From Erodium maritimum (Eukaryota; Streptophyta; Magnoliopsida; Geraniales; Geraniaceae): a stretch of DNA of 64,000 nt. This document shows, one piece after another, positions 1-42,490 of the stretch; within the stretch, counting starts at the first letter, position 1, and each line of letters begins with the position of its first letter. The notes beneath the pieces were generated by a model, which was not told the origin of the DNA, ran no database searches, and worked only from the letters and a program-made list of their open reading frames with translations. The stretch lies in NCBI GenBank assembly GCA_963921825.1, contig OY997591.1, positions 18,533,515 to 18,597,514 of the forward strand. The letters run 5' to 3'. The translations under genes were made by a program, and so were the position numbers.

Positions 1-1189
1 TTGACCTTACTTTTTCCCAAAATGGTGAGATAAGGAGAAATGAGCTTTTGGACCTTTCCTCTTTAGGTTAAAGGCCACATGTGACACCAAAATTCAGCAT
101 TCTTCTTCACTTGGCTGAATTTTAGAGAGAGAAAAGAGAGTGAGCCTCCATTGTTGAAGAAGATAGAGAAGAAGAAGAAGATTATTTCTCTTTGATTCCA
201 CCATCAAAACTCCTCAATTTTTTTTCATATTCCTCTTCATCTCTTCATTTCCTACGGTAAGAATCCATTTCTTTTCACTTTTGAAGAACTTAAGATTGTG
301 GGTCTTGTTTGATTTAGATGAAATTGGATTGGGTCTTGTTGGAAATGATCAAACCTTGGTAGAATCAAGTAGTAATGGAAGAAGATGGGTGAAAGTAGAA
401 GAATTCGGTGAAAACCTAACTTTTGGAATAGGGGGAAATGTTAAATTGGAGGAAATTGGTGATGTTTTTGGTTAGAACTTGATGGATTGAGGACCTAGAA
501 CTCGTTTAGAACGTTTTGGGAGGAAGTTGGAAATTTTCCGGCGACCGGAGGCTCGCCGGAGGACCGGCCACGGTTGTGAGTGGTCTGTGGCTCGGGATCC
601 GTGTCGAGACCGGCCCTTGGTGGGTCCGGTCCGGCACACCCACGGCCAAGTGGGGCCCACTTGGCTGGGTGCCATTGTACGTATCGCCCGGTTAATTTAC
701 TATTTCTTCCAAATCATCGTTCCGTAACCGTTTTAATTAGTTAGGCGTCTTGTCGGGGGCTAATTTGGGCGTTGTCCGTTTTAATCGACGTTGGACTTGT
801 ATTAAGTATTGTGTTACTTGTTATCCTAGACCGTGGGTTTGATCGTGAAGAAGGAGGTCTTTGACGGTTCGTGCTTGGTGGAGTTGGATCGCGGTTGAGG
901 TAGGGAAAAGTAGCGAATACTGGTTAAAATGCGGAAAGTTACTAGAATTGCATATAGGATATGAGTAACCGGAATAATCGTAGAATTGCATGTAGGATGT
1001 GAATAACTAGCGTAGTCGTTTAAAATGTGGAATCACTTGTGGGTCATGTCGTTCCCGTAGGTTTGGGACCTGCCGTGCTGTAGAATTGCATGAGGGCCAT
1101 GTCGTGCCCGTAGGATTGTGTGATGATTGTGCTTTACAAGTGTGTATGTATTTGCTGAACTATTGCCTTGTGACATGTTTGAGGTGTTG
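1..1189 (+). mobile_element. Long LTR-like element, copy A, first segment
   Basis: This is the left part of a long terminal-repeat-like sequence that starts before the window. It resumes at 4753, after a nested relative, and ends with GGGGCGTGACA at 6200. It has a pyrimidine-rich leader-like stretch ending in CCTACG|GTAAG (junction 256/257), a GTGGGGCCCACTTGG block near 650, a GAGGTAGGGAAA motif near 897, and short repeats with CATGTCGTGCCCGTAGG. The same blocks occur in the same order in copies B-E. I see no protein-coding capacity; the short open frames have no family resemblance. Ty3/gypsy origin is a guess because no internal region is present. Confidence 0.7.
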
Positions 1190-2013
1190 TGTGAAGACCG
1201 CCTTGTTAAAAAGTTTTGTTTTATTTAATTTCGTTCGATAGGAACGTCGAGGTTGAAAATCGGATCGAATTTTGTTAAGTTTTGCAAAAAAAAAGGAAAA
1301 TCAAAAAAAAGAAAAATAGAAAAGAACCAAGTCGGGCGGACCAGACCCGACCAGGAGACCCGCCCTGGCCAGGCCACCCGATTCAGTTGGTTTCCTCCAA
1401 GTGGGCCGTGAAGCCCCACTGCATCTGAGGCCCATTTGTGGCTCAAGCCCATTTGTGGCTTAGGCTTTATAAGCCAAACTTTTAGTGTTTCAGCTCAAAC
1501 CCTTGTTCCTTCGCGCAGCCGAGCCTGTCTCCCCTCATCTCTCTCAGTGTCCGCCCCAAGCTCCCTCACTGACCGTTGTCCACGCGAAACCCCCTTCTCC
1601 TACGCGTCTCCGTTCACACAAGCGCACCGTACCCGACCTCCCTCTCTCGTTCCAGATCTCCCCATCTTCGCCGCACCTCTCTCACCGTCCCTCTCCCCTC
1701 TCGCCTCTCGTCCTTCTCGCTGAACCCCTAGCTCTACGGCAAGATCGTCAATAGGGCCTGCGTGTCGTCTTCGGTACGTCGTCCTCTCCGCTCGAGCTCG
1801 TCGGCGTCTCGTCCCGACCCTCTCTCCCTCGTATCGCCGGCGCCGCCCTCTTCCCTCCCGAGTTCCCCCCCCCCCCCTCACCCAAATCCGGTGCTAGGGT
1901 TTCTCAGCTGGCTCGCCGGTACAAGACCCACGTCGTCCGAGCTTCCAACCAACGATATCACGCTCGCCGGATCTGAGAAGGGAGCGCCGTCCAGATCTGA
2001 GTCGAGGTGATTC

Positions 2014-2171
2014 GTCGCGCTCCGCTGTCTCCCACCGTCGTTTCTCCCTACGGTGAGGCCTCGGCCGGCGACGCTCTTATCGGTGGTCGGCTGTCGCGCT
2101 CCGCTGTCTCCCACCGTCGTTTCTCCCTACGGTGAGGCCTCGGCCGGCGACGCTCTTATCGGTGGTCGGCT
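2014..2171 (+). repeat. Exact 79-bp tandem duplication (2 copies)
   Basis: Two head-to-tail copies (2014-2092 and 2093-2171) appear identical by eye. The unit includes the donor-like CCCTACG|GTGAG, so copy B has two potential donor sites, at 2053 and 2132. Identity between the copies suggests a recent event. Confidence 0.9.
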
Positions 2172-3559
2172 GGTTTCGAAAACCGAGTTTCTTCTTCCCT
2201 TTTTTATTTCTGTCCTGAGCTTCATTTTGGATCTGGACTTGAATCTTTGAGATGTAAAATGAAAAGAAAATTAATTTGAAACATAAATGTTTTTGATTTA
2301 AAAAGAGTTTAAAAATCAGTTTTTAATTAAAAAGGACTGTTAATCGGAACTGTGAACGAATCTGGAACGTTAGGACGTTAGGGATCTGGACGTTTAATCG
2401 GACTTAGAACATGATTAAAAACGGAACCGCTGATTTAGGTACATCGGAAACCGTGCCTCGTAACCCATACCTCGAAAACCGTACCTCGGAATCCATGCAT
2501 TGGGAACAGTACCTCAGTAAACGTGCACCGGGTTCCGTGCTCGGGGTTCGGATGATCGAACCTGATTCGTCGTTTAATCCCGCTTTTGACCCGTTCGAGT
2601 TTAAAACGCAACGTGTTGATTTTACTTTGGACTGTACCGGATCTGATTGTAAGTTTTAACCTGTTAAAATCAAACTGGGACTCTGCCCGAGAAGACCAGA
2701 GTCGAACCCAGACTTGGACTTCGTGGACTTCGCCCTAGAAGACGGAGTAGGCCCGGTCGTCAACAGCTAGGAGACGCAGCTGTCGTTATCGTCTTGAGGT
2801 AGGGAAAGTAGCGGATACCGCTTTAATTACGGAAAGTTACTAGTATGCATGCTAGGAAATAATAAAACTGGAAATATCATAGTTTGGCATGTAGGATGCG
2901 AACAACTAGCGTAGACGTATAAACTGTGAACATTTACGATTTTCGTTTTGAGAATTGTCGTGCTGGTAGAATCGGGCCATGTCGTGCCCGTAGGGTTGTT
3001 TGCTGTGTGTATCTGTTGTTGCTTGTGTTTCTTGAGCGGATAATAAATAACGAACATGGAAACAGATAGGATTGAACTAGTGATACTTGTTGACGAGTTG
3101 AGTGGTTATTTCCTGTTATCTGATATGTTGAACGGTGGGAAGGTTGGGAATTGGATACCGGTAAAGCCGGTGGGTTTACCTCGTTGAGCGTGGTGTCGGT
3201 AAGTGATGATAAGTGCGTGATGGTTATGAGTGTGTTTAAGAGTCTAATAAGATTATACTCGGTATTGCATGATTGTGACTGTGTGTGGGCAAGTGTGCAG
3301 TGTTTGTTGTAATGTGAACTCTTGGTCGTGATATGACCGGGTGAGTGATAGACCGGCTGTGTGCTATGTTGAGATGGTCCGGTTGGGATACCGAGGCCAT
3401 CAGTGGTTTGTGTTGTGTGTTATATCCTGTTTGGGTGTTCCAAGAGACGGCGTAGCCGGAGTGGACTTACACCGAAGGATAGTTCCGGTGAAGTGTATCG
3501 AGGCCAAGGATGGCGTGATCAGTATCCCGATGACTCGTAGTCCGGGACGAGGTTCGACC

Positions 3560-4085
3560 GAGGCGCGTGCCGGTCATGTACGTGTTGTGAGAGATGCCCC
3601 GAATCTATGTGACGGGATGCCCCACGTCTGTGTGCGTGGAAGACGTCCGATTGATGTTATTGCCGGTTCGGTACGTATGGTGAGTTGTGCCCTCGTCTGT
3701 GTGCGGGGAAGACATCGGACTGAGGGATTTCCGGTCGAGGATGTTACCCTTCGTCTGTGTGCGGAGGAAGATATCGGGACTAATGATGCGTGATCCAGTA
3801 CGATATAAGTGGTTGTGTGCATCCAGTGGTATGGCTTATGCCGTTAGACGACATCTGTGTGTGTCTCGCCCGTGCCTTATTCTGGCTGATTGGTTGTGTG
3901 CTGTCCTACGACATTTGTGTGTGTCTTGTTGTGTGCATCCGGTGGTGTTGGCTTATGCTGTTTTGCGAAATCTATGTATGTCTTGCTTGTGCCTTATACT
4001 GGCTGTTTGGTTGTGTGCTGTCCTACGACATCTGTGTGTGTCTTATTGTGTGCTTATTTCTCACTGGTTGGCTTTGTGCATTGTC
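3560..4085 (+). repeat. Degenerate GT-rich tandem repeats in copy B
   Basis: Two related arrays are present. About 3 units of 60-70 bp carry a CGTCTGTGTGCG..GAAGAC core (about 3595-3790). After that come about two 117-bp dimers with the core TACGACATCTGTGTGTGTCTTG (about 3830-4060). They occupy the zone between the donor-like and acceptor-like sites, as the arrays of the other copies do. Confidence 0.7.
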
Positions 4086-4747
4086 TGCTGTGTGTGCCGT
4101 GCGGACTGTCTGGCTTTGTGCCTTAGGTTAAGTATGACTTTGGTCTTGTGAGAGTGTTTGGTGACTCGAGATGGTTGTACCTGATTCCTGTGTGGCAGTG
4201 CGAGTTCGCACATGTGGTCGGTTGTGAGATAACCGTAAGTGTTGTTCATTGAGAATTGTTAGGTGATGGGTGTCAAGAGATAGTTGTGGAAAGTGGTATG
4301 AGTTCGGTTCATTGTGAGTTTGTGTTACGGGTTGTGCCTGATGGAAGGCTAAGTGTTGCCTTGGGGTAATTGTTTTAATTTGGCTTTTAATAGTTGCGCT
4401 TTACTAGTATGCCCTAATTGGACGGTTACTCGTGGTTCAAAACTGTGGTTCAGAACCTTAACTACTTTTCCTACTGAGCGTAAGCTCACCCCCTTACTTT
4501 GTTGTGTTTCAGGTGTTGATTGGGATCTGTACTGGCAGGATTCTCGGAGCTTGGGAGCTATCGAGGGTTTAACTAGTGTCTAGCGGCGTACCTTTATTTG
4601 TTTAAGTTTTTTTTCCGTTGTTTTTATCGAGCTGCGACTCGCGAGGTTGTTTAAAGTTTTAAAAGGATGAATTGAGACTGTTGGCTTTATTTTCGATTGA
4701 AATTAGTATTGTTTTAGTCCGGTCAAAACCGCATTTGGGGCGTGACA

Positions 4748-6200
4748 TGTTGTATGTGTGTGTTCCGGGACGATATCTAGGCCGATGTTGTGTGTTCCGG
4801 TACGATATGTTGAGCATTGCCTCTTGACGAGTGCTTTGATTGGAATGATCGTTTGTTGTCATGCTTGAGGCATTGATTGTGCTAGTTATTGAGTAATTTA
4901 GGATTTGATGGATATAATTGATTGAGTGCTGAATTAATGTGGGGACATTGATTAAGTGACTTATGAATTGATGCGATTGGTGGTCGGGGAGTAAGTATTG
5001 GCGGTAAGTGCGGTATTATTGGTTGAACGATATTTTGATGATCAGTCATGATTGTGTGTTACCTCTTATTGAGTGTTGTTATGGTAATGTCTGACTTGTT
5101 GTATGTTCAAGGTGCGCCAGCCTTCCGACTAGGTGTCGGTAAAATGTGTCATTGTTCCGTGATTAGGTACGCCTGCCTTCCGACTAGGTGTCGGTAAAAT
5201 GTGTCATTGTTCCGTGATTAGGTGCGCCTGCCTTCCGACTAGGTGTCGGTAAAATGTGCTATTGTTCCGTGATTAGGTGCGCATGCCTTCCGACCAGGTG
5301 TCGGTAAAATGTGCTATTGCCCATGATAAGGTGCGCCTGCCTTCCGACTAGGTGTCGGTAAAATGTGCTATGGTTCAGTGATAAGGTGCGCCTGCCTTCC
5401 GACTAGGTGTCGGTAAAATGTGTTATGGTTCTGTGATAAGGTGCGCCTGCCTTCCGACTAGGTGTCGGTAAAATGTGTTATGACTCCGTGATAAGGTGCG
5501 CCTGCCTTCCGACTAAGTGTCGGTAAAATGTGCTATAGCTGTGTGCTCCTTATAGTTGTGTGATCCCTATAGCGCGGTGTGATCCGGCGTATTATTGGAT
5601 ACTTACTGTGTGCGTGGTTGCTATTGTTTTACTGTGTGTATTTACTCGGTGATTCTTTTGAGATATGGTTTGTGTGTGAATATTGAACAATCGATAATTG
5701 TTGGGCAGAGTTGATTTCATATGTTAAGTGTGGTGATTGGGTAAGGGGTGTGATCAAATGATGTTGTGGTTATGTGAGGTTGGTTATGATTGTGATTGTG
5801 ATTACGTGTTCTCCTGTTGATTTTGTTAGTAGTTATTGCTTACTAGTATGCCATATTTGGACGGGTATCCCTGGTGGTGAGCGAAATGCTCATCCCCTTT
5901 ACTACTTTTTCCTACTGAGCGAAACGCTCATCCCCTTCACTACTGTTTTTACAGTTTTTGATCGCGAGTTGGTTTAAAGGATGTCTCGGAGCTTGGGAGC
6001 TTAGCGAGAGTCCTAGGTCTAGAGACGTACTCCCCTTCGCACCAAACTTTTTATGTTGGGATTTCGAGCATTTGACTCTTGTTATCAGAATTGCGATTTT
6101 GAACCATTTTTAGAGTTTCATTTAGTTTAAAATTGCCTTCTTTATTGTTATTTTCGGTTCACGTCTCGAGTCCGGTCAAAACCGGATTTGGGGCGTGACA
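4748..6200 (+). mobile_element. Long LTR-like element, copy A, second segment
   Basis: Copy A continues here after the nested insertion; 4748-4752 is the duplicated TGTTG target. It holds the 55-bp minisatellite (5111-5549), an ACTAGTATGCC block, two GAGCG/CGCTC-type hairpins (5877-5892 and 5915-5934), an acceptor-like TTTTTACAG ending at 5954, and the terminus GGGGCGTGACA at 6190-6200. The sequence immediately after 6200 is Harbinger ORF1 coding sequence, so the element inserted into that gene. The left target duplication lies outside the window. Confidence 0.75.
5111..5549 (+). repeat. 55-bp minisatellite, 8 units
   Basis: Eight units start at 5111, 5166, 5221, 5276, 5330, 5385, 5440 and 5495. 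Each contains CCTTCCGAC-N-GTCGGTAAAATG, a short hairpin followed by TAAAATG. Units differ at only a few positions. The core recurs as single or dimeric units in copies C, D and E. Confidence 0.95.
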
Positions 6201-6889
6201 ACTTCGGTCGCTCCCTCACGATATTCCAAACATGCTTGAGGTGAACTCGTGGTCTCCCTCTATCTTGTATGCCCTTTCAGCCGCTGCAATGACGTCAGCC
6301 AAGCTCCTCCCGCTTCTGAGATCTTTCTCAAAGTTGGTATACTTCTCCTGAAAATTTATGACTCTTCTGTTGCACTGATGCCAATGGTCCTTGCAAGCAG
6401 TCCACTCCCGAGGTGGGTCGTCTAGCTGGTGCGTCGACAGGAACTCGGCATGTACTTTTTCCAATACATGTCATTCCTCTGGTTCTTCTAAGTTATAGGG
6501 TCTAGCGGATTGTTGAGCCACAAACTCGCCAATCTTTCCTCCTCCACGATGGACAACTTCAGCCGCGGAGGTGCTTTCGTCGATGTAGATGCAACCATCT
6601 TCCCCTTCCCCTTCCTCCTCGCTTGCGTGGTCGGAACGGATTGAGAAGGTTGTGTGGACGGAACAGATTGGGAAGGTTGTGAAGATTGCACGTTAGGGAA
6701 TTGCGACTCGGGCCATTGGGAGTAGTGGGTGGTCGGGGTGTATGGAGGAAGCGAAGATGATTGGCTCAAGTTGAGGAGGTTGGTATATGATGCAATATTG
6801 TCCACGACTTCTTCTTCAGTGTGGTGAGAGTCGGCGTTGTTGTCGTTCAATGACTCGGATACGAATTGGAGGCAACGATTTTCGTCCAT
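6201..6889 (-). pseudogene. Harbinger ORF1, Myb/SANT-like protein, disrupted
   Basis: The reading starts with MDENR at 6889, runs through a Ser/Pro/Gln-rich segment with two near-identical SQPSQSVP-type repeats, a basic ARRKGKGK patch and KLSIVEEERLASLW. After a frame change it continues into EWTACKDHWHQCNRRV and FEKDLRSGRSLADVI (6216-6464). This is the trihelix/Myb-like layout of plant Harbinger ORF1 proteins, often mis-annotated as glutathione S-transferase T3-like. The frame breaks near 6470. The protein is then cut by LTR copy A after KHVWNIVRE. In intact elements this protein cooperates with the DDE transposase in DNA binding. Confidence 0.75.
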
Positions 6890-8677: not shown

Positions 8678-9610
8678 ATGGAAAAGATCGAGATCTCTAA
8701 GCCCATTTCTACTATGTTTGACGGGTTTAATTATATGTTGCGGGCACACGAGATGTCTAGCTCTCTTGATGGAAAGCTACTTTAGCGTAATGTGACTGGA
8801 GAGTTCATCCAACCAGTCCGAGCAGACGATGAAGATGAAGAAAAGTTTAATTACCGCTTTGAAATATGGGATAACAAGAACCATCAGATTCTTACGTGGT
8901 TCCGAAACACTTGTACTGTTTATGTGAAAGCTCATTTTGACCGCTTCAACACTGCAAAAGAAGTTTGGGGTTTTCTTGCGAAACTCTACTCCACCACTGA
9001 TGTTGCTCATCAATATCAATTATTGTGTCGTCTTCACCAACTGAGAAGGAGGCAGGATAGTCCATTTTTGACTTTCTCTGTAACATGTAAGCTATTTGGG
9101 ATCAACTTATTGCCTTTGAGCCGAAATGGGAGAATCTCAAGGATTCTGTCCTTTTTGCCCAATCTCAGGATCGCCTAAGGGTCATGTAGTTCCTGATGGC
9201 TCCCCGGTTTAAGTTCGAACCGATTTCAAGTTCTTTACTACATCGAGATCCATTTCCCACTTTTGAAACAGTGATCGTTGATCTACTTTCCGAGGAAACT
9301 CGCTTTGTTGGCATGACATCTCATCGCCCTCCTGTTGCTGTTCTGGCCACGGTTGGTAAAAATTCTTCACAGGAAAGACCAATCTGTAGGCATTGTCTTG
9401 AGGAGGGTCACATTGTCTTGAGGAGGGTCAAATCTTCAAGGAATGCCCTACTCGACCTAAGATGCCAGTTTATTCACAAGGGTTTTATAAGCCTAGGTCT
9501 CATGGTTCTTACCAGCGTGACCCTCAAAATTTCAGGCCTCCGCCCAGATCCAATGTCGCTGCTGTTGTCTCTTCAGACTCCTCTAATGCATATGCTGATT
9601 CCCTAAACAT
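8678..9610 (+). pseudogene. Ty1/copia gag, broken
   Basis: The frame opens with MEKIEISKPIS at 8678 and has an in-frame TAG about 34 codons later. It continues through DEEKFNYRFEIWDNKNHQIL and AKEVWGFLAKLYS, which is the retrotransposon gag (UBN2-type) region. A frameshift near 9180 precedes a CRHCLEEGHI zinc-knuckle remnant (9380-9430) that is disrupted by a short local duplication of GAGGGTCACATTGTCTTGAG-type sequence. It lies 630 bp after the primer-binding site of the same element and is non-functional. Confidence 0.8.
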
Positions 9611-9689
9611 GACAGCTCTCCTCAACAAAATTGAACAGACCATCAAACAAGCATTGACTAAGACTCACTCTAGTACTACCTCTATTTCC

Positions 9690-11330
9690 CCTATAAAGGT
9701 AGGTATGTCATCCCCATGGTACTTCGACTCTACTTGTTTTAATCACATGAGTCCACAGTCATCGTTATTTTCTCACACTACACCAATAAAAAACTCACCT
9801 ATCATTCATACCGCCGATAACTCTACACTGTCTGCCACACACTAGGGTACTGTATCTACTCCACGGTTATTGTTGCCACAGACCCTCATTGTTCCCAAGT
9901 TGTCTCTCAATCTCATCTCAATAGGACAGTTGTGTGATTTAGGCCTTGATGTTAACTTTTCTGGTTGTTCTGCTTTTGTTTTCGTGCAGGATCCAATGAC
10001 GGGAAGGATCTATGAGACGAGCCGTAAGTCAGGCCGCATGTTTGAGCTCACTTCTTTACAACTTCCCTCATCGTCATCCTCAAACAAATGTGGTGTTGTG
10101 GTCTCCGCTGATCTCTGGCATTCACGTCTTGGTCATGTCTCTTCCCAGCGTTTAAATTATCTAATTTCTAGTGGCTTGCTAGATTCTGTTTCTAGTAAAT
10201 TTGGTGAATGTGTGTCTTGTAAGCTTGGCAAACATCATGCACTTCCATTTTCTAATAATGACTCTATTTCAACTGAACCATTTGATCTCATTCATTTTGA
10301 TTTATGGGGACCATCTCCTACTCCTATAATGGGTGGTGCACGTTATTTCGTCATTTTCGTTGATGACCATACTCGGTCACTTGGATTTATTTAATGAATC
10401 ATAATCTGATCTAACCAGTGTCTATTCCAAATTTTCCAGTATGGTTCAAACTCAGTTCTCGAAAGTTATTAAAAAAAATTGTATTGTTAATGGCACGGAG
10501 TACAAAGAAACTTCTTTTCTTGATCTCCTCGTCGCGAATGGCACTATTATGCAAAGATTTTCTCCAGGTACATCTCAACAAAATGTTCGAGCTGAGCGTA
10601 AACATCGTCACATCCTTGACACCGTTCGGACATTGTTGATCTCTTCAAATTGTCTTGAGCGTTTTTGGGGTGAAGCTACCCTCATAACTGTCTATACTAT
10701 CAACAGAGTCCCATTTTCGGTCATAGGTAACAAAACTCCTTATGATCGTCTTTATGGTCGCTCACCTTCCTACAGTCTTCTTTGAGTATTTGGATGTGTC
10801 TGTTTTGTTCACTTACAACCACACGAACGTACCAAACTTGAGCCACGATCTCGTTATGTTTCTTCATTGGGTATGTGATTGAGCACAAAAGGTATAGATG
10901 TTGGGATCCTATATCCAAAAGTCTTTGCATTTCTCGACATGTTACCTTTTGGGAACACAAGATGTTCTCATCAATGTCTCCTTTCCATGTATCTGCCTCC
11001 GTTCCATTCTTTTCAAATCCCGACATTGATTTATTTCCGGATGATACTGAGGGATCCTCCTCTGAGCTGACTCTTATAGGTGACTCCACTTCTTCGGACC
11101 TGAACTACTCCGGTTGAGCCTCTTCGTCATGTTCCTCTTCCGGCCAAACGACCAGATCTGCTCCCACCTATCGCTGGAGCTCCGCAGTCCGAGCCGACAT
11201 GCTCCTTCTTTACCATGCTCACCCGACCAATCCTGTGCCCTTGCCCCAAGCGGATCAGATCTGCGCCGTTGGTGCCGTCCACCTCCCCCCTCGCTCTGAT
11301 CTCATCCCAACCATCGGAGGTCGACCTCGA
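9690..11330 (+). pseudogene. Ty1/copia pol: protease, integrase, linker; no RT
   Basis: In order: protease (SPWYFDSTCFNHMS, where the catalytic DSG/DSGA motif is altered to DSTC); a GAG-pre-integrase domain with WHSRLGH and CVSCKLGKH; integrase (FDLIHFDLWGPSP, VIFVDDHTRS); then a deletion or frameshift at about 10395-10440; then integrase C-terminal parts (RFSPGTSQQNVRAERKHRH, FWGEATLITVYTINRVP, NKTPYDRLYGRSPSY). A Ser/Pro-rich linker follows to about 11330. Reverse transcriptase and RNase H are absent, so the element is truncated about 510 bp before the DHQ-SDH start codon. Several stops and frameshifts confirm it is dead. Confidence 0.85.
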
Positions 11331-26245: not shown

Positions 26246-26270
26246 TGCTTTGATTCTCGTATTAATACCA

Positions 26271-30610: not shown

Positions 30611-30738
30611 ATTACATAAACCTAATTAACATAAAAAATATATGTGAATTGATCATATTTATAACAATTATTCGAGGTAAATGGAAATTAAGTAAATCTA
30701 TATATAATACATGCAAGTAAAAAAGGAGGTTGATAGAA

Positions 30739-31227
30739 GGGGTTACTCCATGTCCTAACACCCAACTTTCAGAAATTGTTAAATCCAAACCCTGTACAAT
30801 TGAAATTGCCATGTAGTAACGGTCAATTAACTGAAATTGCCAATTGTTTCTAATTTTAAACGGACGTTAACTTGGACAAGTGAAAAGTCGAGTTTACCCT
30901 CAAATATGTTCTTCATACGGATGTTAAATTGGCCTAACTTCATCTCTTTGTGACCTAATCTCTTCATCTCAGCTCTTCGAACTTCATCTCTTTGTGTCCA
31001 ACCTTCGAATTTCATCTCTTCGTGACCTCTGCTCGCGTAAGCTCCATTATAAAATGAGTCACGTGGGCAGCACGTGATTCACTGTTCACGGAAAAGTCAA
31101 TTTAAACAGTACTTTTTGATTTTTAATAATTCAGTTTTGAAATTCGTTACTATTTGATAATTTTCCAAATCTTGGGTTTGGATTTGACAATTAAGTGTAG
31201 TACGAGGTTAGGACATGGAGTAAACCC
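30739..31227 (+). mobile_element. Mutator-type MITE, copy 1
   Basis: 489 bp with terminal inverted repeats GGGGTTACTCCATGTCCTAAC and GTTAGGACATGGAGTAAACCC. Exact 9-bp flanks TTGATAGAA (30730-30738 and 31228-31236) are a Mutator-superfamily signature. It is a near-identical sister of the copy at 43495-43984. Non-coding. Confidence 0.95.
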
Positions 31228-31454
31228 TTGATAGAATAAGAAAATAAAAAATATGTTTCTCTCTCCTCTTCCAACCAGGCTGAAAGAATTTTATTTTATG
31301 TCCATGTTTTTACTGTTGGTTGATAGGGTATGCTGATAGCATAAACAAGTATTATAAAAGAAAATTTAAATGCACACAAATTAAATGTAAATGACATTTC
31401 ATTGAAAATAACTAAAATGCTAATATAATAATCGAAATAAACTAGAATGAAAGA

Positions 31455-32003
31455 TAATTATGCGTCATCACCAAACTTGTTCCAAATGTTTTCGATGAGG
31501 TCATAAGCATGATGAGCACGTTGATCATGCATCATTTGGGTGTTTGATAACATTGGTCAAGACGAAGCTTCCTTGCATGAATGTTGGTTCATTTGACCCA
31601 CCCTCATCTATATGTTAAGTGTAGCCGTCATGCGTATGATGTTCTACCTCGACAATCATATTGTGCATGATAACACATGCATTTATGACTAAGATGAGAG
31701 AAGATGGTTTCCACATTCGACTCAGCCGAGGGATAATGTGAAACCGAGATTGGAAGACCCCAAATGCTCGTTCCACATCCTTCTTGCATGCTTCTTGGAC
31801 TTCAGCAAAATTCTTGAGCTTCAGAAGCCGAGCTAATGAGATTGTTTTCACAAAAACCAGCCAAAAGGGTAAATATCATCAATAAGATAATAAGGAAGGT
31901 TGTATTGGTGACCATTTACCGTGTATTAGACCGGTGGTTTCCAACCATTGACGACGCCCGAGAATAACCTGGAAAGGTTAAGCACAATTAAGTTTTTATT
32001 GGA
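31455..32003 (-). pseudogene. Harbinger transposase, C-terminal segment
   Basis: On the minus strand: VNGHQYNLPYYLIDDIYPFW, VKTISLARL, EACKKDVERAFGVFQSRFHI, MWKPSSLILVINACVIMHNM, VEVEHH, then HHAYDLIENIWNKFG near the end. This is the DDE_Tnp_4 (ALP1-like) pattern, with the catalytic Asp in YLIDDIYP and Glu in DVERAFG. Stops interrupt it. It is separated from its upstream part by LTR copy C at 32009. Confidence 0.85.
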
Positions 32004-33440
32004 ACCCGTGTAAGAACCGCTCCCGGTCAACGCCAATCAAATCGGCGGAAAAACAGAAAAATTTAAAATTTTGGGACAGACACTTAAATGAACCTAAATT
32101 TGACCCCGAGGGTCATATCGGACTTAAGTTGACCCCGATATCGACCAAAGTGAGTTCTGGGGGACTCAGGGCAACTTTTTGACCAATTTGGGAAAGGTTG
32201 ACTTTTTGCCGGAAAAGTCAACCGAGCGACGTTTTGGTACGTTCGAGGCCCGTTTTGGATCCAAAAAGCTTAGCCGTCGTTACAGCGGTCTTATTTGGGC
32301 CGTTTCCTTGTAGCACGTGAAATTTCGTAATTTCTTGGAAAATGGGCCCGTTAGGGGCCCGAGACGGCCGAATTTCGCGAATCGGACTGAAAAATATCTA
32401 TCAAGATATTTTTCTAAGGTGTGGGACCCACTTGACACTTGTCACACATTTGGTGGTTGGTTTTGAAAATAAAGAAAAAGAAATGAAGTGGTAGTTTTGT
32501 AAATAAGGGGTGGTTGGTGAATTTTTGAACAAAACAAAAGGAAATGCAGAGAGTGGTTCGGCCAAAGAGAAACAAAAGGGAAAAGGGAGAGAGAAAGAAG
32601 AGAGAAGGAGGAAAGGAAAAAAGGAAAAGAAAGTGAAGGCTTTTTTCGATTGCCCGACGATCCGACCGACCGATCGACTCAACGACTGCGGATCCGAACT
32701 CCCCTCGTCATTCCGTACGGTGAGAACCGTTCTTTTCTCGTTTTGGTACGTTTGAAAATTAGGGTTTGAGTTTAAACGAGTCAAATATGGTTGGGTTTTG
32801 GTTAGAATTGGTTTAAAGACGAATAGTTGAGGTTTGGGGTTCGTTAGGAACGTTTTGGGGCGAAAAGGAAAATTTTCCATTGTGGCCGTGTGGGGCCCAC
32901 TTGCCCGGGCCTCGTGTTTTTCGTGTTCAGGTGCTTTTGGACGATCCCCGAATCGATAATTCACACCCGGAACGAATTATGGAATTAAATTGTGAAAATT
33001 GGAATTACCGTGTTTAGAAACTTTAAACGCGAATTAAATCGCTCGGAAGTCGGAAATTGATTCCGTCGATTGCATTGGAACCCTTAAATTATTCTAAGAT
33101 CGTAGAAACGAAAACGGGAATTTTCGGAGCCCCGGAAGGGCGTTTTCCAATCCCGGGCAGATTCGCCGAGCCGGGCGAATCGGGCCTTTCCGGGCCCATT
33201 GTTGAAAATGTCGAGTAATTGGGAAGTTTGGGAGTGATCGGCATTATCGGGTTTGCGTTTGGGCATCTAATTCTTTAAAATTCAGCTTCGCCTGCGAACT
33301 TAAAAAGTGATTTAATTTGTGTTCATGTTAGATCGTGCCACCGACCGCGGAAATGGGAGGCTAGGCGAGTGATCGCGAGCGCGCCGGAGCTTGGGCATGG
33401 ACTTTTGGGAAAGTGTTACGAGGTAGGGAAAGTTAACAGT

Positions 33441-33640
33441 AGAAATGCATGTGACACTTAGTGGTGTCGTAGGATAAGTAAATTTATCGAACAATAGAAA
33501 TGCAGGTGACACTTAGTGGTGTCGTAGGATACGTGAACGTATCGAACAATAGAAATGCATGTGACACTTAGTAGTGTCGTAGGGTAAGTGAACGTATCGA
33601 ACATTAGAAATACTTGTGGCATTTGGTTGTGCTCGTAGGT
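33441..33640 (+). repeat. Tandem repeat in copy C, about 55 bp x 3
   Basis: Units start with AGAAATGCATGTGACACTTA at 33441, 33497 and 33551, with a partial fourth at 33606. Each contains GTGTCGTAGG and TATCGAACA(A/T)T. Confidence 0.9.
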
Positions 33641-33815
33641 TGATTGAATTGTTTGTGTTTGTGGGTGGCCATGAGTGCCCGTGGGGAGTTGAACCCGTAT
33701 TGGTTGACTGACTTGCCGAGTGGTAGTTAGTCGTGTTGTCGTATTTTCTTCCTATTTGCGGGGTATTGTGTGTTATTTGGTTGTGACTGTGATTGTTCTG
33801 GTGATGACTGTTGAG

Positions 33816-34170
33816 CTATGCCCGATGGGTGTATCGTACCCTCCGGTGCGCGGTCGGTAAAGTGCTGAGGGTTGTGGTTCCCGTCAGGTGCGTCGTACCT
33901 GACGGCGCATGATCGGTAAAGTGCTGAGGTTAGAGCTGTGCCTGAGGGGTGTATCGTACCCTCCAATGCGTGGTCGGTAAAGAGCAGAGGGTTGTGGTCC
34001 CCGTAGGTGTGTTGCACCTTCCGGCGCGTGATTGGTAAAGTGGTGAGGCTGGATTTATGCCCGAGGGGTGTGTCGTACCCTCCGGTGCGCGGTCGGTAAA
34101 GAGCAGAGGGTTGTGGTCCCCGTCAGGTGTGTGGCACCTTCCGGCGCATGATCGGTAAAGTACTGAGGCT
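33816..34170 (+). repeat. Tandem repeat in copy C, about 120-bp dimers x 3
   Basis: Dimers start at about 33816, 33936 and 34055. Each half carries a CCTCCGG.GCG.GGTCGGTAAAG-like core, the same hairpin-plus-TAAA module as the 55-bp repeat of copy A. Confidence 0.85.
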
Positions 34171-34702
34171 TGTGGTTATGGTTTGCGTGACTTTGATCAC
34201 TTCTGTGTTGTTGTGTGCTTTGAGGTCGTCTTTACGGTGTAGGGTCTACATTACGGGTACGAGCGTTTAGATTGGTTGGGGAAAGTAAGAATTTTCGTGT
34301 GACAGACAGGTTATTTGAGTTTGGGGATAGTAGTCCCCGGTGTTTTGTTTGTTGTTGGTTTTCCGGCATTTCTGCTAGTATGCCGTAGTCAGTCTGGTAT
34401 CCATGGTGGTGAACGAACGCTCACCCCTATCGGCTTTTCCTACAGGTACTGGTCGCGAGGCGGACTAGGGGAACTCTCGAAGCTTGAAGAGCTGGGAGCG
34501 GGAGTCTGGGTTTTGGGAGTTTAGCGACGTACGCTTTGGTTTTTGTCCGCTTGTTTTGGACGCTTTTCAGTTGTAAAACATTGTTTTGATTAACGTAAGT
34601 GGCAATTTTAAAAAGGTTTATTAAAATATTTGAAAATCGTTTTACTGTTTCACCGTTCGCGTTCCGGGTTCGGTCATGCCGAATTCGGGGCGTGACAACC
34701 CG

Positions 34703-35144
34703 CCATATCAAAAAACGCGCTCCAAATCCACAAGTCCCGCATGTCAACGACCTCGAGAACCATAGTTGGTATGTTATCATGATCCCTCCTCGGTTAAGAG
34801 CCTTTCAATGTCGTCAGAAAATTCTTATACTTCTAGTGCATGAAGTCAAGACTACCCAACATCCAGAGAAATCCACGCGCTTTATTCACTGCTAAAATGT
34901 AATTCATATCAACCTATGTTGGTTTACGTAGATAAGTTGAGCCAAATATAGTAATAACTACCCTGCAATTTTATCAACCACTCCAGAGTTGTTTTTTCGC
35001 CAATTCTCATATACTCCTCCATAACATCGGCTACAATTCCATAACACAATTGTCTAATGGTCGTAATACATTTTTCATACGGAGATAATGATATCTAAAC
35101 CAAACCGTCCATGCGTTGCCTGAAGTATGCATCTTTATCCTCCA
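34703..35144 (-). pseudogene. Harbinger transposase, middle segment
   Basis: On the minus strand it reads MEDKDAYFRQRMDGLV, LSPYEKCITTIRQLCYGI, ADVMEEYMRIGEKTTLEWLI, an LGSLD.MH..KYK block, NIPTMVLEVVDMRDLWIWSA. It joins the C-terminal segment (31455-32003) and the N-terminal one (38274 onward) when the two LTR-like insertions are removed. It contains the first part of the DDE domain. Internal stops and small frameshifts show decay beyond the insertions. Confidence 0.85.
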
Positions 35145-36925
35145 TGTAATAACCACTCCCGGTCAACGCCAGTCAAATCTGCGAAAAACAGGAAAATTTA
35201 AAAAAATTCAGTTGACACTTGATTGAACCTAAATTTGACCCCGAGGGTCATACCGGACTTAATTTGACCCAGATATCGACCAAAGTGAGTTCCGGGGGCC
35301 TCAGGGCAACTTTCTGATCAATTTGGGAAATGTTGACTTTTCGCTGGAAAAGTCAAACGAGCGACGTTTTGGTCCATTCGAGGACCGTTTTGGATCCAAA
35401 AAGCTTAGCCGTCATCGCAGCGGTCTTAGTTGAGCCGTTTCCTTGTAGCCCGTGAAGTTTCGTAATTTCTTGGAAAAAGTGCCCGTTCGGGGCCCGAGAC
35501 GGCCGAATTTCGCGAATCTGACTAAAAAACATCTAGGAGATATATTCCAAAAGGTGTGGGACCCATCTTGCCACATGTCACCAATGTGGTGGTGTTAGAT
35601 AACATTGAACAAAACAAAATATGGAAGGGTGGTGTTAGTTGTGTAAATATGATAAATGTGGTGTTTTTGAAAAAAATACAAAAGATGAGCCAAGGGTGAT
35701 GTTCGGCCATATTGGGAAAAAGTGGGTTTTTGGAGAGAGAAAATAGAGAGAGAAGGAGAAGGAGAAGAAGAGAGAAAAGAGAAGAGGGTGTTTGGAGTTT
35801 TGGCTTTTCCCGTCGATCAAGTCGTTGGATCGTCTCAACGATAGAAGAATCGAGTTCACACCGTCATTCTCTACGTGAGCACCTAACCGATTTTCGTTTT
35901 GTTAAGTTCGAATTTTAGGGTTTGAGTTTAAACGATTCAAATATGGTTGGGTTTTGGTTAGAATTGGTTAAAAGATGAAGGGTTGAGGTTTGGGGTTCGT
36001 TAGGAACGCTTTGGGGCAAAAAGGGAATTTTGCCATTGTGGCCGTGTGGGGCCCACATGCCCGGGTATCGGGTTTTCGTGTTCGGGTGGTTTAGAACGTT
36101 CCCCAAGTAATTAATCTTCAACTGGATCGAAATTTGGAATTAAATTGTGAAAGTTGTAATTGACGGGTTTAGAAACTTTAAACGCTAATTAATTGACTCG
36201 GAAGTCGGAATTCGATTCCGTCGAGTGCCTAGGAACCCTTGATTTATTCTAAGACCGTAGAAACGAAAACGGGAATTTTCGGAGCCCCGGGAGGGCGTTT
36301 TCAAAACCCGGGCAGATTCGCCATGTCGGGCGAATCGGGCCTTTCCGGGTCCAATATCGACAATGTCGAGTAATTGGGAAGTTTGGGAGTGATCGACATT
36401 GTCGGGGTTACTTTTGGGCGTTAGGTTTATTAAAATTCAGCATTATGCCTGCAAGCTTAAAAGCGTTTAAAATTGTGTTCTTTTAGATCGTGCTGCAGAC
36501 CGAGGGAAGGGAAAGCTAGGCGAGTGACTAAGATCACGCCGAAGCTTGTTGGTTGGCTTTTGGAGAACACGCACGAGGTAGGGAAAAGTAGCCAGATCTC
36601 GGCCCTGACTAGGGAAAGTTAAGAGTAGAATTGCATGTGACACCGGGGTGTCCTGGGTTAAGTAAGTTATCGGATATTAGAAAGGCATGATACGGGAACA
36701 TAGCGAATATTGGAAATGCATGTGACACTTAGTAGTGTCGTAGGAGCAGAGAACTTAGCGTTATTAGAATTACTGGAGGCATATGACCATGCCCTGAGGT
36801 TGATTGCGAACTTATCGAGATTAGGAGTACTAGAGGCATATGACCATGCCCGGAGGTTGATTATGAAACTGTTGATATTAGAACTGTTGGAGGCATCGGT
36901 TATGCCGGAGGTTGATTGTGTATTT

Positions 36926-37280
36926 TGTGTCTTGGGTGGCCATGAGAGCCTGTGTTTTACTGTTGTGTCTTGGGTGGCCATGAGAGCCCGTACTTTACTA
37001 TTGTGTCTTGGGTGGCCATGAGTGCCCGTGGGGTTGTTAAACCCGTGTCTTTACTGTTGGTGTGTCTTGGAAGGGCGTGAGTGCCCGTGGGGTTGTTGAG
37101 CCCGTGAGTTACTGTTGGTGTGTCTTGGGTGGCCATGAGTGCCCGTGGGGTTGTTGAGCCCGTGAGTTATGGTTGGTGTGTCTTGGGAGGCCGTGAGTGC
37201 CTGTGGGGTTGTTGAGTCCGTGTTTTACTGTTGGTGTCTTGGGTGGCCATGAGTGCATGTGGAGTGTTGAACCTGTCTTG
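36926..37280 (+). repeat. Tandem repeat in copy D, about 38-58 bp x 7
   Basis: Units begin GTGTCTTGGG(T/A)GGCC(A/G)TGAG(T/A)GCC. The first two are about 38 bp and the later ones about 56-58 bp, with an added GGGGTTGTTGAGCCCGTG block. Confidence 0.85.
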
Positions 37281-37397
37281 TTGCTGTTTGTTGAATTTTG
37301 CTTGTGATTGTGATTGGGTTTCCCCGAGGTTAATGACCCGACTTCGTGTCGGGAAGTGGTGTGGAATTTGGCTGGCTTACCTGACAGGGATCGGTAA

Positions 37398-37553
37398 GTT
37401 GCGAGCGTTCTTTGGCTGGCCTGACCGAGTTCGAGTCTCGGGAGGTTGCGAGCGTTCTTTGGCTCGCTTGACCGAGTTCGAGTCTCGGGAAGTTGCGAGC
37501 GTTCTTTGGCTAGCCTGACCGAATTCGAGTCTCGGGAGGTTGTGAGCGTTTTT
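37398..37553 (+). repeat. Tandem repeat in copy D, 47 bp x 3
   Basis: Units start GTTGCGAGCGTTCTTTGGCT at 37398, 37445 and 37492, with a partial at 37539. Each ends CGAGTTCGAGTCTCGGGA, itself a short inverted repeat. Confidence 0.9.
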
Positions 37554-38273
37554 AGGCGATGAGAGGGCAGCTCCCCTTCCGACTAGCTATCGGAAAAGCA
37601 GCGCTGTATATATCGCCAACAGGTCGACCACCTGGATCCTGACAGGGATCGGCAAAGCGCGTGGGGCAGGCTCGAGCCCAGTCGGTTAGCAACCGGCACT
37701 GAGCAGCTGACAAGAGTGCGATCCTTTGTGATCTTGTTTGGTGTGCGATCCTTTGTGATCTTGGGTGTTGCGTGGTGGTCTGTCGTGTCTTTGGAGGAGG
37801 TCGTCGATCGTTGTGTCGGGTCTACCTTACGTGTCCGAGTGTTGAGTCGGCTGAGGGAAGTATCAGTGTGTGGGTGTCGGTCGGGTTACTTGACTTTGGG
37901 GATGGTGTTCCCCGTGTTGAATTGGTTGTTGGTGTTACCGGCATTGTCTGCTAATTATGCCGTAGTCAGTATTTTATCCGTGGTGGTGAGCGAACGCTCA
38001 CCCCTAGCTGCTTTTCCTACAGGTACCAGTCGCAGGTTGGACTAGGTGAGCTTCCGAAGCTTGAAGAGCTGGGAGCGAGATTCTGGGTTTATTTTGAGTC
38101 TAGCGACGGATACCATACTTTTGTCCACTTGTTGGGACGTGTTTTAAGTTGTAAATATTATTTTGTTGAACAAATGGTGATTTTAAAGTATTTTAATGAA
38201 AAAGGGTTCAAAGTGTTTTATTGTTTTAAAAGTTCACGTCCTGAGTTCGGTTTACTGAAATTGGGGCGTGACA

Positions 38274-38580
38274 CTCCAACTCACAGACAATACACGTGAA
38301 CACATCCTTCGACATTCGGAAACGACGAAGAAATCGTGTTTCAGTGTACACGAGGTGATTATTGAAATAGTCACGCAGTAAACGTTCATTGGCAGCAACC
38401 TAGTCTCGCTTGATGTAGTTTTTCTTCTTTCATGGTTGTGTTGCGATCATGACTTCGCCTAACAAATTTTTAACCTCTTCAGATGGATTGGTGATGCTTT
38501 CTTCGATTGCACATTCCAAAATTCACTCGAGCCTCCGCTAATTGGCCAGGAGCTCTCTTCTTGCATCGGAATTTCTCACC
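38274..38580 (-). pseudogene. Harbinger transposase, N-terminal segment
   Basis: The minus strand reads RNSDARRELLAN..RRLE, SEEVKNLLGEVMIATQP, KKNYIKRD..AANERLLRDY, HLVYTETRFLRRFRMSKDVF, TCIVCELE, the usual N-terminus of plant Harbinger ALP1-like transposases (R.Y..RDR..AHERL..DYF....Y....FRRRFRM). No start methionine is evident; a splice site may precede 38580. The gene is cut by LTR copy D at 38274. Confidence 0.8.
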
Positions 38581-39649
38581 TTTTTGTATAAAAATATAGT
38601 TAATACAAGATTTTGGGGTCGGAAGAGTTGAGAATAAAAAGTATGATTTTTTTATGCTACACAGCTGATTTTATATAAAATTTGGGCCAATTTTAGCAAT
38701 AAATTTTGATTTCTTCAAATAAAAATTTATCAAAACCATAGTCAACTAGTGATCAATGGAGATATAGTTGTTTGCGTTAGCGGATAGAACCGTCGATTAG
38801 CTTACCGATGCTAACTACATACGTAACAATAACATACATATCTCTGTTTCTCGCTGAACTCTCCCAAAACCTAAACCTAAACTTTCCTCTTCTCCTCCTA
38901 TAAACGTCGTCGACGATATTCGTCGCCTCGACCATTGATATTGCTGGTGGTCTCTTCTGTTTTCTGGCCTTGGTCTCTGGCTCCTTCTCTTCGACCTACG
39001 CGTGCTCCTCCCTCCCGTTCTCGACACCTTATTCAAATATGGAGTTTCCCTTTTCATATTTGGACTTTGTGTTATGGTTTGGTGCTTCGAGATCTCCTCA
39101 CTTCAAAATCAGGTACCATAACTTCTTCTCCCCTTCATGCTCCGATTTCTCTCAGATCCTGGGTTTCTCCGATATATCCCGGTGTTGGCCGATAGAGAAT
39201 TCAACCTTTTTTTTCATGGAAAAGGTGGTTTGGGGTCTCTGATTTTGTTGCCTGGTTTGAGTCTTTCGGGCTCCTATCCCCTCTTTGGGATCGTCGGCTC
39301 ATGTGGTGCTGGCCTCCGACGATCGGACACACCTTCTGGACATGCGATTTGCTCTCTCTCTCTCTCTCTCTTCTTGTTGCAGGGGATGGTTTGGTGGATC
39401 GTTGGTTTTGAAGGTGCTTGCGGTGTGGACGTTCTTTGATTCAGCGGTCTTGGCACTCCAGTGGTCTCTGATGAGGGTGGGAGGCGCGTGGGGTCGTGTT
39501 GGGTTCATTAGTTTCGACGTTAATGCGTGGTCCTGAGGAGTCTTTTCCCGTTGTGTGGCCTTTGGGTTACTTCGGGTCATTGAGGAGTTAATCTATAGGT
39601 GTTGCAATATTTTAATTGATTTTTAATTTCTGTTTTTACAGATCTCATT
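38581..39649. other. Intergenic, no gene recognised
   Basis: AT-rich to about 38800, then pyrimidine-rich, transcript-leader-like sequence (38850-39600) with a (CT)n run at about 39351-39371. The second half resembles in style the LINE-tailed retroposons at 52.7-56 kb, but I see no poly(A) tail or terminal duplication. Confidence 0.4.
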
Positions 39650-42490
39650 TGTCACGCCCCAAATTCGGTATTGACCAGATCCGAGATGTGACTTAGTGAA
39701 ATTAAATAAAAACAAATCTAGAAGGGATTTAAGTCTGAAAATGAGAGAATAATATAAATCAACAGAGTTCAAATCTCGAGTCCCAAGCTCAGTCAATATA
39801 AAATGAACAACACAATACGTCTCTAATAACAACAAGTAAAACAACGTGCATCCGCCAGCTTCCCAGCTCTGCGTGACCCTCTAGTCCAAGGCATAGCTAT
39901 CACCTGTAGAAAACAGAGTAAAGGGGTGAGCTTGACGCTCAGTAGGGAGAACCACAAAAGGCTCCTCAATTCGGATTGACCAGAACACCTTTCCATAATT
40001 TGAAATATTTTAAGAGAGACGATATAACAATACAACACTTAAGCCAATTAACAGTCAACACTCCCTTTAATCTGACACTCCTAGGCCAACCATACCAACT
40101 TAACTCAACACCAACCATTTGACTAAGGGACACACCGAAGGGAACAATCCAAATAAGACACCCAAATACGTTTCCAAACTAACTTTTGACAATCAAAAGG
40201 AGTGGGCGACAACGAGAACATGTAACTCAAATTAAATAACTTTCACTTTACTCGACCACAAACTATCCCGAAAATCCTCGTCCAAAGCCCCTTCACGACC
40301 GACTCACGGATAAACACAAAGACGACGCTTTAACTTGCACGGAAGCCACACACATGAACTTCATCATCAAACAATCAAAATCAAGTCATTCACGGTCACA
40401 CACAACTCATAACAAGGAAAATACCCATAGCCACAACATAACAATACTCATTCAATTCAAAGCAATCTCAAACAAACAACTCGTAACCATCGCACGGTCT
40501 CGAGAGAAACCTGCTCGGCCCGGCGCAGCCGCACACAACTTCCCAACCACAAAGTCGGGATAGGCGGTCGACCGCATCGTAGAACACAGCGTTTTACCAA
40601 TCGAGGGAAGACAGGGAAATCGCCTCTTCGCGGCCTCATCTCTCGCGGTGCTCAACACAGCGTTTTACCGAGTGCTAGTCGGAAGGTAGGGAAACCACCT
40701 CTTCGCGGGACACAACGTTTTACCGACTCACGGTCGGAAGGTAGGGAAACCACCTTTCTTATGTAACCACAATACCACGAACACAACACTTTACCGATTG
40801 CGCGCCGGAAGGTACGATACACCTGACGGAAGTACATCTCTCACACTTTACCGGCCGCGCATCAAAACAATCACAATCACACTCACAAACATGATCACAA
40901 TCACGTTCTCAATTTACTCCCGTAACCATCACACACTTACCATCACTTACAGACACCACATTCGACGTGGTAACCCCATCGGCTTAACCGGTATCCGTTC
41001 CCCAACATCCCCAATTCAACATAACCGAGAAACAGGAAATAACCACTCAATCACTAACATGCAATACCAAGTTCAACTCTACTCGTTTTCATGTTCGTTA
41101 ATTAATAATCGTTCAAACAACATAGAGTACAAAATCCACACAATCAGCAAACAATCCTACAGGCACGACATGGCCTGATTCTACCAGCACAACATACCAA
41201 CACCTACGGCACGACATGGCTCGTAGGTCGTTCACATGTTATAAGACTACCCTAGTCAATTCCATCCTATATGCATACTAGTTATGTATCTGGTTATTAG
41301 GTTTCCTTATATGCATTCTAGTACATCCGTAATAAAGCGGGTTTCGAGGTAAACCCTACCTCTCAAATCTCTATCTGGGTCGCCTAGCTACTTACGTCCT
41401 GGCCAACTCCGGTCTTCTCCGTGCTCAGGGTAAATGCCTGGTTTTAACACAAAAGGAACAGTCATCTGTCCCGGTCCAGTCCGTAACGGTCCTCAAATTA
41501 ATAAATTAGTGCAGTAGTTTGTCCAAACGTCCTTTAAAAGTCCGATAAGTCCTTGTATTTATATGATTTTAATCCAATTAAATTAATTACATTAATGTCC
41601 TGACCCGGATCCGACCCGAGCCCGAAACCCGGACCCGAATCCGACCCGGATCCGACCCAATCCAACCTCAGACCCGGACTTAACCCGAGCCCGACCCAGA
41701 CCCGGATCCAGACCCGGATCAGGACCCGGACCTCAGATCCAGTCCAGGCCCGAGGCTCGAACCAAGTTCAGGCCTGAGGCCCAAACCAAGTCCGGCCCAA
41801 AGGCCCAGACCAGAGTTGAAGCCCAAGGCCCGAGTCCGAGGCCCGAGTATCGTTCTTGGCCCGAGCCCAAGCTCGCTCAGGTCTGAGATGAGGCGGCTAG
41901 GGTTCCGGCAACGGCGGCGACGAGACGGAACCAGGGTTTCACGACGGTGGTAGAGTCGTCAGGAGCTCGGGATGACGGGGAGAAGGTTGCTAGGGCGAGC
42001 CTGGAGTTCCTCCGCTTCAGATCTGACGGCGAGGAGTAGATATGGAGCTCGGGCTCCGGCGAGCTTCTTCATCCAAGCTCGGCCACCAACCGAGCTCGTA
42101 CGAGCACGATTCCCAGAAGAGGAAGGGAGGGAAGGATGGGTCAGGCCCGAATGACGGCTCACCTGAACTGGATTTCGCGTCGCCGGTACGGCGTAGCTCG
42201 GAAATGAGCGGGCGACGACGGAGGTGAAAGGGTTTGGGGCGGCGGTGCTGATTTGGTTCGAAACGAAGAGGAAGAAGAAGAGAGGAGATGGGTTCTCTGG
42301 CACGGTCGTGACGATGGAAGGTCGAGGGAGAAGAAGCAGAAGCTGGAGAAGCTAGGAGACGGAGCTCCGGCGTGGTTCGAGGGTGAGAGACGGCGAGGGA
42401 GTTCAAGAGCTCGGGGGAGAAGGAGAGAGCGAGTCTCGGGTTCTGTGCGCAGAAGTGAGAGATGAAGCGGCGCGAGAGGGTTTTGATCGC
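39650..42490 (-). mobile_element. Long LTR-like element, copy E (minus strand)
   Basis: On the plus strand it begins TGTCACGCCCCAAATTCGG, the reverse complement of the common terminus. Reading the minus strand backwards from there: acceptor-like TTTTCTACAG (intron end 39904), hairpin GAGCG..CTC at 39925-39943, TTTTACCG/CGGAAGG repeats (40570-40860), CATGTCGTGCC motifs near 41200, GACCCGGATCC-rich simple sequence (41600-41850), a C/T-rich leader, donor-like TTCAG|GTGAG at 42161/42160, and a TATATAAAA box near 42500. The end at high coordinate is not defined: no TGTAA..ACC start or matching TCATT duplication was found, so it is probably truncated. Confidence 0.7.
40570..40860 (-). repeat. Tandem hairpin repeat in copy E, 60-80 bp x 4
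   Basis: Four units with ACA(G/A)CGTTTTACCG, a spacer, then CGGAAGGTAGGGAAACCACC. On the minus strand this is CCTTCCG..CGGTAAAACG, the module of copies A, C and D. Confidence 0.75.

Follow-up and report, generated by a model that had tools for sequence, protein, structure and literature searches.

Putative spliceosomal introns confined to the long terminal repeats of Ty3/gypsy retrotransposons in Erodium maritimum

Introduction

Can a retrotransposon keep an intron that lies wholly within its long terminal repeat (LTR)? During replication the R-U5 part of each new LTR derives from the template's 5' end; a spliced template would thus yield an LTR without the intron, and reverse transcription of spliced RNA would erase such an intron from both LTRs in one cycle. 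This sharp problem is raised by a stretch of 64,000 nucleotides from Erodium maritimum (GenBank assembly GCA_963921825.1, 763 Mb in 40 contigs; contig OY997591.1, positions 18,533,515 to 18,597,514 of the forward strand), here called the window, which holds five LTR copies, A to E; their genome-wide relatives are referred to as A-type to E-type. The initial annotation of the window proposed that all five copies share a splice donor-like site, a hairpin and an acceptor-like site in this order. We found that the ordered layout is real, with corrections to the donors of copies D and E, the leader and the spacing. It is reasonably probable, in our judgement, that these LTRs of abundant Ty3/gypsy, probably Tekay, retrotransposons carry a spliceosomal leader intron wholly inside the LTR, the use of the sites being what we infer from sequence.

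Identity of the LTRs

Copies B, C and D have TG...CA ends, and all three, like copy A, are bounded by exact 5-bp target-site duplications (TSDs). Twenty A-type and 20 C-type relatives were fetched from the genome; the LTR end was located in 13 and 15 of these, respectively, and the acceptor in 14 of those 15. An exact TSD with TG was present in 6/13 A-type and 7/15 C-type loci. The primer site TGGTATCAGAGC directly follows the LTR in 4/15 C-type loci and in one B-type locus, and in none of the 13 A-type loci. The C-type relatives L056 and L060 have a purine tract just ahead of the LTR. The internal DNA adjoining the LTR in L054 matches Retrotrans_gag, that of L057 contains RVP_2, RVT_1 and RT_RNaseH_2 in that order, and in L056 the integrase C-terminal SH3_Tf2-1 lies ahead of the LTR, with a Chromo match below threshold (E=0.057; score 13.8 bits, cutoff 25.1).

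The TSDs, primer site, purine tract and gag-pol domains identify A to E as LTRs of retrotransposons, and thus fail to support the other possibility raised with the proposal, complete non-autonomous elements, which was rejected. Assignment to the Ty3/gypsy superfamily is probable, with good support from the domains seen. The lineage is probably Tekay chromovirus, an assignment made by eye from the internal sequence, which looks Tekay-like. Likeness to Tekay/Del chromoviruses lies in the primer-binding site TGGTATCAGAGC, the RVP_2, reverse transcriptase and RNase H domains, and the integrase tail, with its SH3_Tf2-1 match and an end resembling a chromodomain. A search for relatives in IMG/VR with three patterns gave 0, 0 and 6 matches; an LTR-like terminus within 500 nt was found for none of the six, which were therefore taken as chance.

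Conservation of the donor-like site

Donor-like sites in copies A to D lie at the positions first proposed (Table 1; a slash marks the cut), and in copy B a perfect 79-bp tandem duplication (2014-2172) doubles the donor. The site in copy E was placed at 42161/42160 by the initial annotation and is in fact at 42163/42162; it is unalignable with the donors of the other copies. GTRAG is all that the donors of the five window copies have in common. Sites were ranked among the GT or AG sites of each copy with a plant splice-site matrix, on which the donors of A and E are strong (2/258 and 2/239), those of B and C middling (23/345 and 15/250) and that of D weak (102/291).

Across the genome, YYCCTACGGTRAGRNC has 2,391 exact matches compared with 18 for the reversed pattern. 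With at most three mismatches, the A-type donor pattern has 2,266 matches (12 reversed) and the B-type pattern 706 (2 reversed). The usual reading is TTCATTTCCTACG/GTAAGAACCCATT in the A-type and GTCATTCCCTACG/GTGAGAACCCATT in the C-type. GT is kept in 21/21 A rows and 21/21 C rows, and GTRAG in 19/21 and 20/21 (window copy included in each); because these rows were picked by similarity, intact GT within them is by itself weak evidence. Among the A-type sites listed with a single mismatch, none of 40 had it at GT, in a sample that is small and biased by the listing.

Families were also compared with each other. The A and C consensus letters (12/20 A-type, 12/20 C-type copies) agree over 23 of the 26 positions that span the cut, against a maximum of 12 and a mean of 6.2 in a shifted-register null. 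When 13 A-type copies were compared with 14 C-type copies by BLAST (pieces at E<=0.01), the donor was aligned in 158 of the 182 pairs, the families being otherwise poorly alignable: coverage was 0.00 between -400 and -50 and again between +50 and +200, and did not exceed 5% out to ~600 nt, with other, partial coverage at the start of U3 and on the side of GAGGTAGGG and the minisatellites. CCCTACG/GTGAGG was found in 4/5 small B-type loci picked by search string, and the leaders of these loci differ. The core common to the A-, B- and C-types is thus ~YYCCTACG/GTRAG, about the size of a 5' splice site. Whether the sites change as fast as their surroundings, a question posed together with the proposal, has a two-sided answer: between families the donor stands as an island in those 158 pairs, and within a family the splice sites are kept no better than their immediate neighbours. 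On these comparisons the donor is not a chance resemblance, and GT...AG sites are kept across families A, B and C, the site of D being degraded and that of E unalignable.

Hairpin, acceptor and pairing with the donor

In each window copy the hairpin is followed by a pyrimidine tract and a CAG, which ends where it had been placed in all five copies. The spacing between hairpin and CAG, first given as 18-21 nt, had to be revised; counted by hand from the end of GCTC it is 22, 22, 20, 20 and 21 nt in A to E. The acceptors rank 1/137, 1/175, 8/152, 3/208 and 1/145 among AG sites on the same matrix. A combined hairpin and acceptor pattern has three exact matches in the window (B, D and E) and none in 100 shuffles. 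In the genome, GAGC-loop-GCTCACCCC followed by TNCAGGT within 6-14 nt has 16,476 exact matches and its control none, and A-type hairpins with ATCC fall outside this pattern. At least three different tract sequences occur among the acceptor matches listed, so it is composition and spacing that are kept, not letters. AG is kept in 13/14 A rows and 14/15 C rows (window copies included; 7/20 A and 6/20 C loci without a located acceptor were dropped), and CAG/GT in 7/8 B-type loci found by search string, one of the eight being the window copy. In the A-C pairs the hairpin zone has a coverage of 0.6-0.9.

The two sites also occur together. On contig C1 between 5.5 and 20 Mb, where both listings overlap, a same-strand acceptor lies 1.8-4.0 kb downstream of 8/14 listed donors; random placement in this interval gave a mean of 0.16 and a maximum of 3 in 2,000 trials, and flipping the strand gave 0.

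Among the acceptor matches listed, three on the plus strand of C1 (7108202, 7116717 and 7125232) are exactly 8,515 bases apart twice running, and other pairs lie ~8.45-8.5 kb apart (for example C1 5178903 and 5187393). This spacing of ~8.5 kb suggests tandem full-length elements that share LTRs.

Leader and search for spliced copies

The leader had been described as pyrimidine-rich, which fits copies B and E (C+T 0.68 and 0.69), slightly A (0.55), and fails for C and D, whose leaders are purine-rich (A+G 0.67 and 0.64). All five window copies lack ATG in the 150 nt before the donor, where 3.85 would be expected (p ~0.01, or 0.03 without D). Among the 20 A-type and 20 C-type relatives, ATG occurs 0.25 and 0.55 times per 170 nt before the donor and 3.90 and 2.30 times after it; the reverse-strand word CAT occurs 6.70 and 1.15 times per 170 nt before the donor.

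Between copies C and D, identity is 78-92% across U3 windows and 68-94% over the first 600 nt downstream of the donor. In the leader (C 32458-32738 against D 35594-35894) identity is just 52-64%, as if exon 1 were fast-evolving or swapped.

Spliced junctions were sought in the genome. The A-type junction gave nine matches against five for its control, all nine at three mismatches; the C-type junction gave two against three, both at the three-mismatch limit; and a degenerate junction covering the three types had no exact match, nor had its control. For comparison, an equally long donor pattern, allowed as many mismatches, gave 2,266 matches, and a 22-mer at 8-10% divergence would pass this limit in 83-91% of cases; spliced copies are therefore absent or very rare. 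The proposed intron is present in all 27 fetched copies in which the donor and the LTR acceptor end were both located (13 A-type, 14 C-type). One candidate spliced copy, the short C-type LTR of L057, was rejected: it keeps the donor and the start of the intron, and what it has lost begins within the intron and ends in exon 2 instead of reaching from one splice site to the other. Because the template's 5' end is the source of a new R-U5, the rarity of spliced copies implies either that there is no splicing or that unspliced RNA is used as genome almost strictly. The conservation pattern favours the latter, we infer.

Proposed LTR intron and alternative explanations

If the LTR contains an intron, transcription would start upstream of the ATG-poor exon 1, which would end at the donor YCCTACG/GTRAG. 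A minisatellite-rich intron of 1.7-3.2 kb would follow, up to the acceptor (hairpin, pyrimidine tract, YAG/GT) ~250 nt before the LTR end. Spliced RNA would serve as mRNA, shedding 22-53 ATGs, and unspliced RNA as genome; the hairpin, because it lies inside the intron, could be a mark kept by genomic RNA alone. Through the donor island and the hairpin zone, sequence evidence now lends more support to an intron lying wholly inside the LTR than the original proposal had; the donor of E and a pyrimidine-rich leader in C and D were not borne out. Use of the sites would show how a plant retrotransposon separates RNAs for translation and replication, and would make these LTRs a large genome-wide supply of splice sites. 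A bolder version, which we offer tentatively and hold to be possible rather than probable, places the whole intron in the repeated R region and makes splicing a switch: spliced RNA would be translated and not replicated, unspliced RNA with the hairpin would be packaged, and a solo LTR would form a unit of promoter, exon, intron, exon and terminator. Solo LTRs could then be a source of spliced noncoding RNA, or of exons taken up by host genes.

Several observations weigh against an LTR intron. The intron is no more T-rich than exon 2: an increase in T at the donor is seen in B, C, D and E, not in A, and no decrease follows at the acceptor, unlike the composition of U-rich plant introns, which exceed both flanking exons in U. 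In three 5' LTRs the number of ATGs in exon 2 is one to three, and 11-26 ATGs remain in post-LTR stretches of 670-1768 nt at four loci (decayed copies, gag start not defined); splicing alone would therefore not clear the leader. The A-type junction search belongs here as well, and the lack of intronless copies is equally predicted by no splicing. The acceptor itself was covered in just 48/182 A-C pairs, and its 16,476 matches exceed the 2,391 exact donor matches about sevenfold; the 5' parts of many LTRs with an acceptor thus differ or lie beyond the types tested. The hairpin stem shows no covariation and folds better than all shuffles in 1/6 stretches; covariation of the hairpin is not supported, the stem letters being identical except for one mismatch in C. 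The donor of copy D lacks one G and ranks 102/291, and that of copy E fails to align with the others; with a leader rare in the genome (40 first-look candidates), the E donor was rejected as a general site. Finally, the word GAGGTAGGG, which the initial annotation had seen and which was indeed found in all five copies, contains a rival donor, GAG/GTAGGG, which could serve as an alternative or as the main 5' site. It ranks 4, 6, 9, 4 and 7 among the GT sites of A to E and so ahead of the donor proposed for B (6 against 23), C (9 against 15) and D (4 against 102).

The lack of intronless copies would be accounted for if the role of the donor were to bind the U1 small nuclear ribonucleoprotein and thereby prevent early polyadenylation in the 5' LTR, with little or no splicing to the LTR acceptor. 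Human T-cell leukaemia virus type 1 and bovine leukaemia virus resemble foamy viruses in having a donor in the LTR; foamy virus acceptors lie outside the LTR, whereas the acceptor here shares an LTR with the donor. As excerpts of PMC3694450 describe, foamy viruses have their major splice donor within the LTR and ahead of the poly(A) signal, and U1 binding at this donor suppresses the 5' poly(A) site. With this precedent, U1 binding alone fits the donor island too, and it leaves unexplained a hairpin with TNCAG/GT conserved at 16,476 places; we regard it as unlikely.

Short regulatory motifs are kept by LTRs, and the conserved blocks may be promoter, transcription-start or other DNA or RNA motifs that resemble splice sites. 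One A-C pair aligns over 42 nt at 83%, a block that exceeds a 5' splice site, and the hairpin and GAGGTAGGG are conserved with no obvious role in splicing. Such motifs would not account for three features: the core shrinks to ~YYCCTACG/GTRAG when B-type copies are added, the acceptor follows in order on the same strand, and ATG avoidance stops at the donor. The probability that we give to this explanation is likewise small.

A real intron might have its main 5' splice site at GAG/GTAGGG, which would give an intron of 1.0-1.7 kb in the minisatellite zone. Presence in 5/5 copies and the good ranks would favour such a site. The stretch thereby added to the exon would carry 3-7 ATGs, and the similarity between A and B begins at the word and runs ~230 nt downstream, not centred on a junction, which makes this version highly doubtful. 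Neutral leftovers of common ancestry, with A to D as dead solo LTRs whose sites have no function, would agree with within-family conservation close to that of immediate neighbours and are nevertheless very improbable, as they predict a smooth decay between families and not a donor island in unalignable flanks.

In some C-type LTRs (L060, L061, L062 with one mismatch, and L065) an extra hairpin with GAGGTAGGG lies ~350 nt before the acceptor hairpin.

Relation to known elements

According to excerpts of a 2025 review (PMC12786077), plant LTR retrotransposons are generally without introns, Ogre and EVADE being notable exceptions; excerpts of PMC3735527 add the spliced elements CRR, Bagy2 and BARE1, and those of PMC7730604 report alternative splicing of two expressed sunflower elements that gives short Gag isoforms. 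As described in these parts of the three sources, the known plant retrotransposon introns concern coding regions, not LTRs, and no LTR-confined intron of a plant retrotransposon was found in the portions of the literature searched. Ogre, also Ty3/gypsy, is likewise a plant LTR retrotransposon with a functional intron (PMC12786077, PMC3735527, same excerpts); it splices between open reading frames (PMC3735527), whereas the intron here would be wholly within the LTR. In EVADE and BARE1 (Ty1/copia) splicing gives a translated Gag RNA beside the full-length RNA, as would be the case here (PMC12786077, PMC3735527), from a coding-region intron (104 nt in BARE1) in contrast to an LTR intron of 2 kb. 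CRR and Bagy2 are spliced Ty3/gypsy elements too, and differ in that CRR splicing removes rt and Bagy2 makes an env subgenomic RNA (PMC3735527). A survey of Beta vulgaris chromoviruses has, in its main text, no 'splic' words and one 'intron', that of a host gene (PMC3605345).

Other features of the window

Table 1. Coordinates of the LTR copies and of their putative splicing features in the window
Feature	Position	Strand	Remarks
Copy A, solo LTR	start 455 bases before window, to 6200	+	TSD ACTTC both sides; interrupted by copy B
Copy B, solo LTR	1190..4747	+	nested in A; TSD TGTTG at 1185-1189 and 4748-4752
Copy C, solo LTR	32009..34697	+	TSD ACCCG; inserted in PIF/Harbinger-like remnant
Copy D, solo LTR	35145..38273	+	TSD CTCCA; inserted in PIF/Harbinger-like remnant also holding C
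Copy E, LTR	39650..42510	-	3' tip at 39650; TATA-like site near 42.5 kb
A donor block TTCATTTCCTACG/GTAAGAATCC	244..266, cut 256/257	+	
B donor TCTCCCTACG/GTGAGG	2043..2058, cut 2052/2053	+	
B donor, second copy	2122..2137, cut 2131/2132	+	79-bp duplication
C donor block	32707..32729, cut 32719/32720	+	
D donor-like site TAC/GTGAG	35863..35883, cut 35874/35875	+	degraded
E donor-like site CAG/GTGAG	42158..42172, cut 42163/42162	-	unalignable with other donors
Proposed intron A	257..5954	+	2135 nt without nested B; 53 ATG
Proposed intron B	2053..4512	+	2460 nt; 44 ATG
Proposed intron C	32720..34445	+	1726 nt; 22 ATG
Proposed intron D	35875..38022	+	2148 nt; 27 ATG
Proposed intron E	39904..42162	-	2259 nt; 38 ATG; least certain
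A hairpin TGAGCG-AAA-CGCTCA, pyrimidine tract, acceptor	5916..5956, intron end 5954	+	
B hairpin, tract, acceptor TTTCAG/GT	4475..4514, intron end 4512	+	
C hairpin, tract, acceptor CTACAG/GT	34408..34447, intron end 34445	+	one stem mismatch
D hairpin, tract, acceptor CTACAG/GT	37985..38024, intron end 38022	+	
E hairpin, tract, acceptor CTACAG/GT	39902..39941, intron end 39904	-	
GAGGTAGGG in A, rival donor GAG/GTAGGG	897..905	+	word in 5/5 copies

Copy B sits within the supposed intron of copy A. A 5' boundary of copy E was sought and not found. The nine-base words common to all five copies are GAGGTAGGG and three overlapping words in the terminus GGGGCGTGACA (mean 0.02 and maximum 1 in 50 block shuffles). 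An Rfam scan of the window at gathering thresholds gave no matches. Genes in the window have domain matches to dehydroquinase/shikimate dehydrogenase, BRCT and DXP-synthase.

Solo LTRs C and D split a transposase remnant (31400-38620), presumably of PIF/Harbinger type; open stretches run on across its joined flanks. Degenerate Ty1/copia-like pieces with Pol_BBD and gag_pre-integrs matches lie at 9402-10394. Two copies resembling miniature inverted-repeat transposable elements, with inverted ends, flank C, D and E at 30737-31229 and 43493-43986; they are ~12.76 kb apart and 97% and 95% identical in the compared parts.

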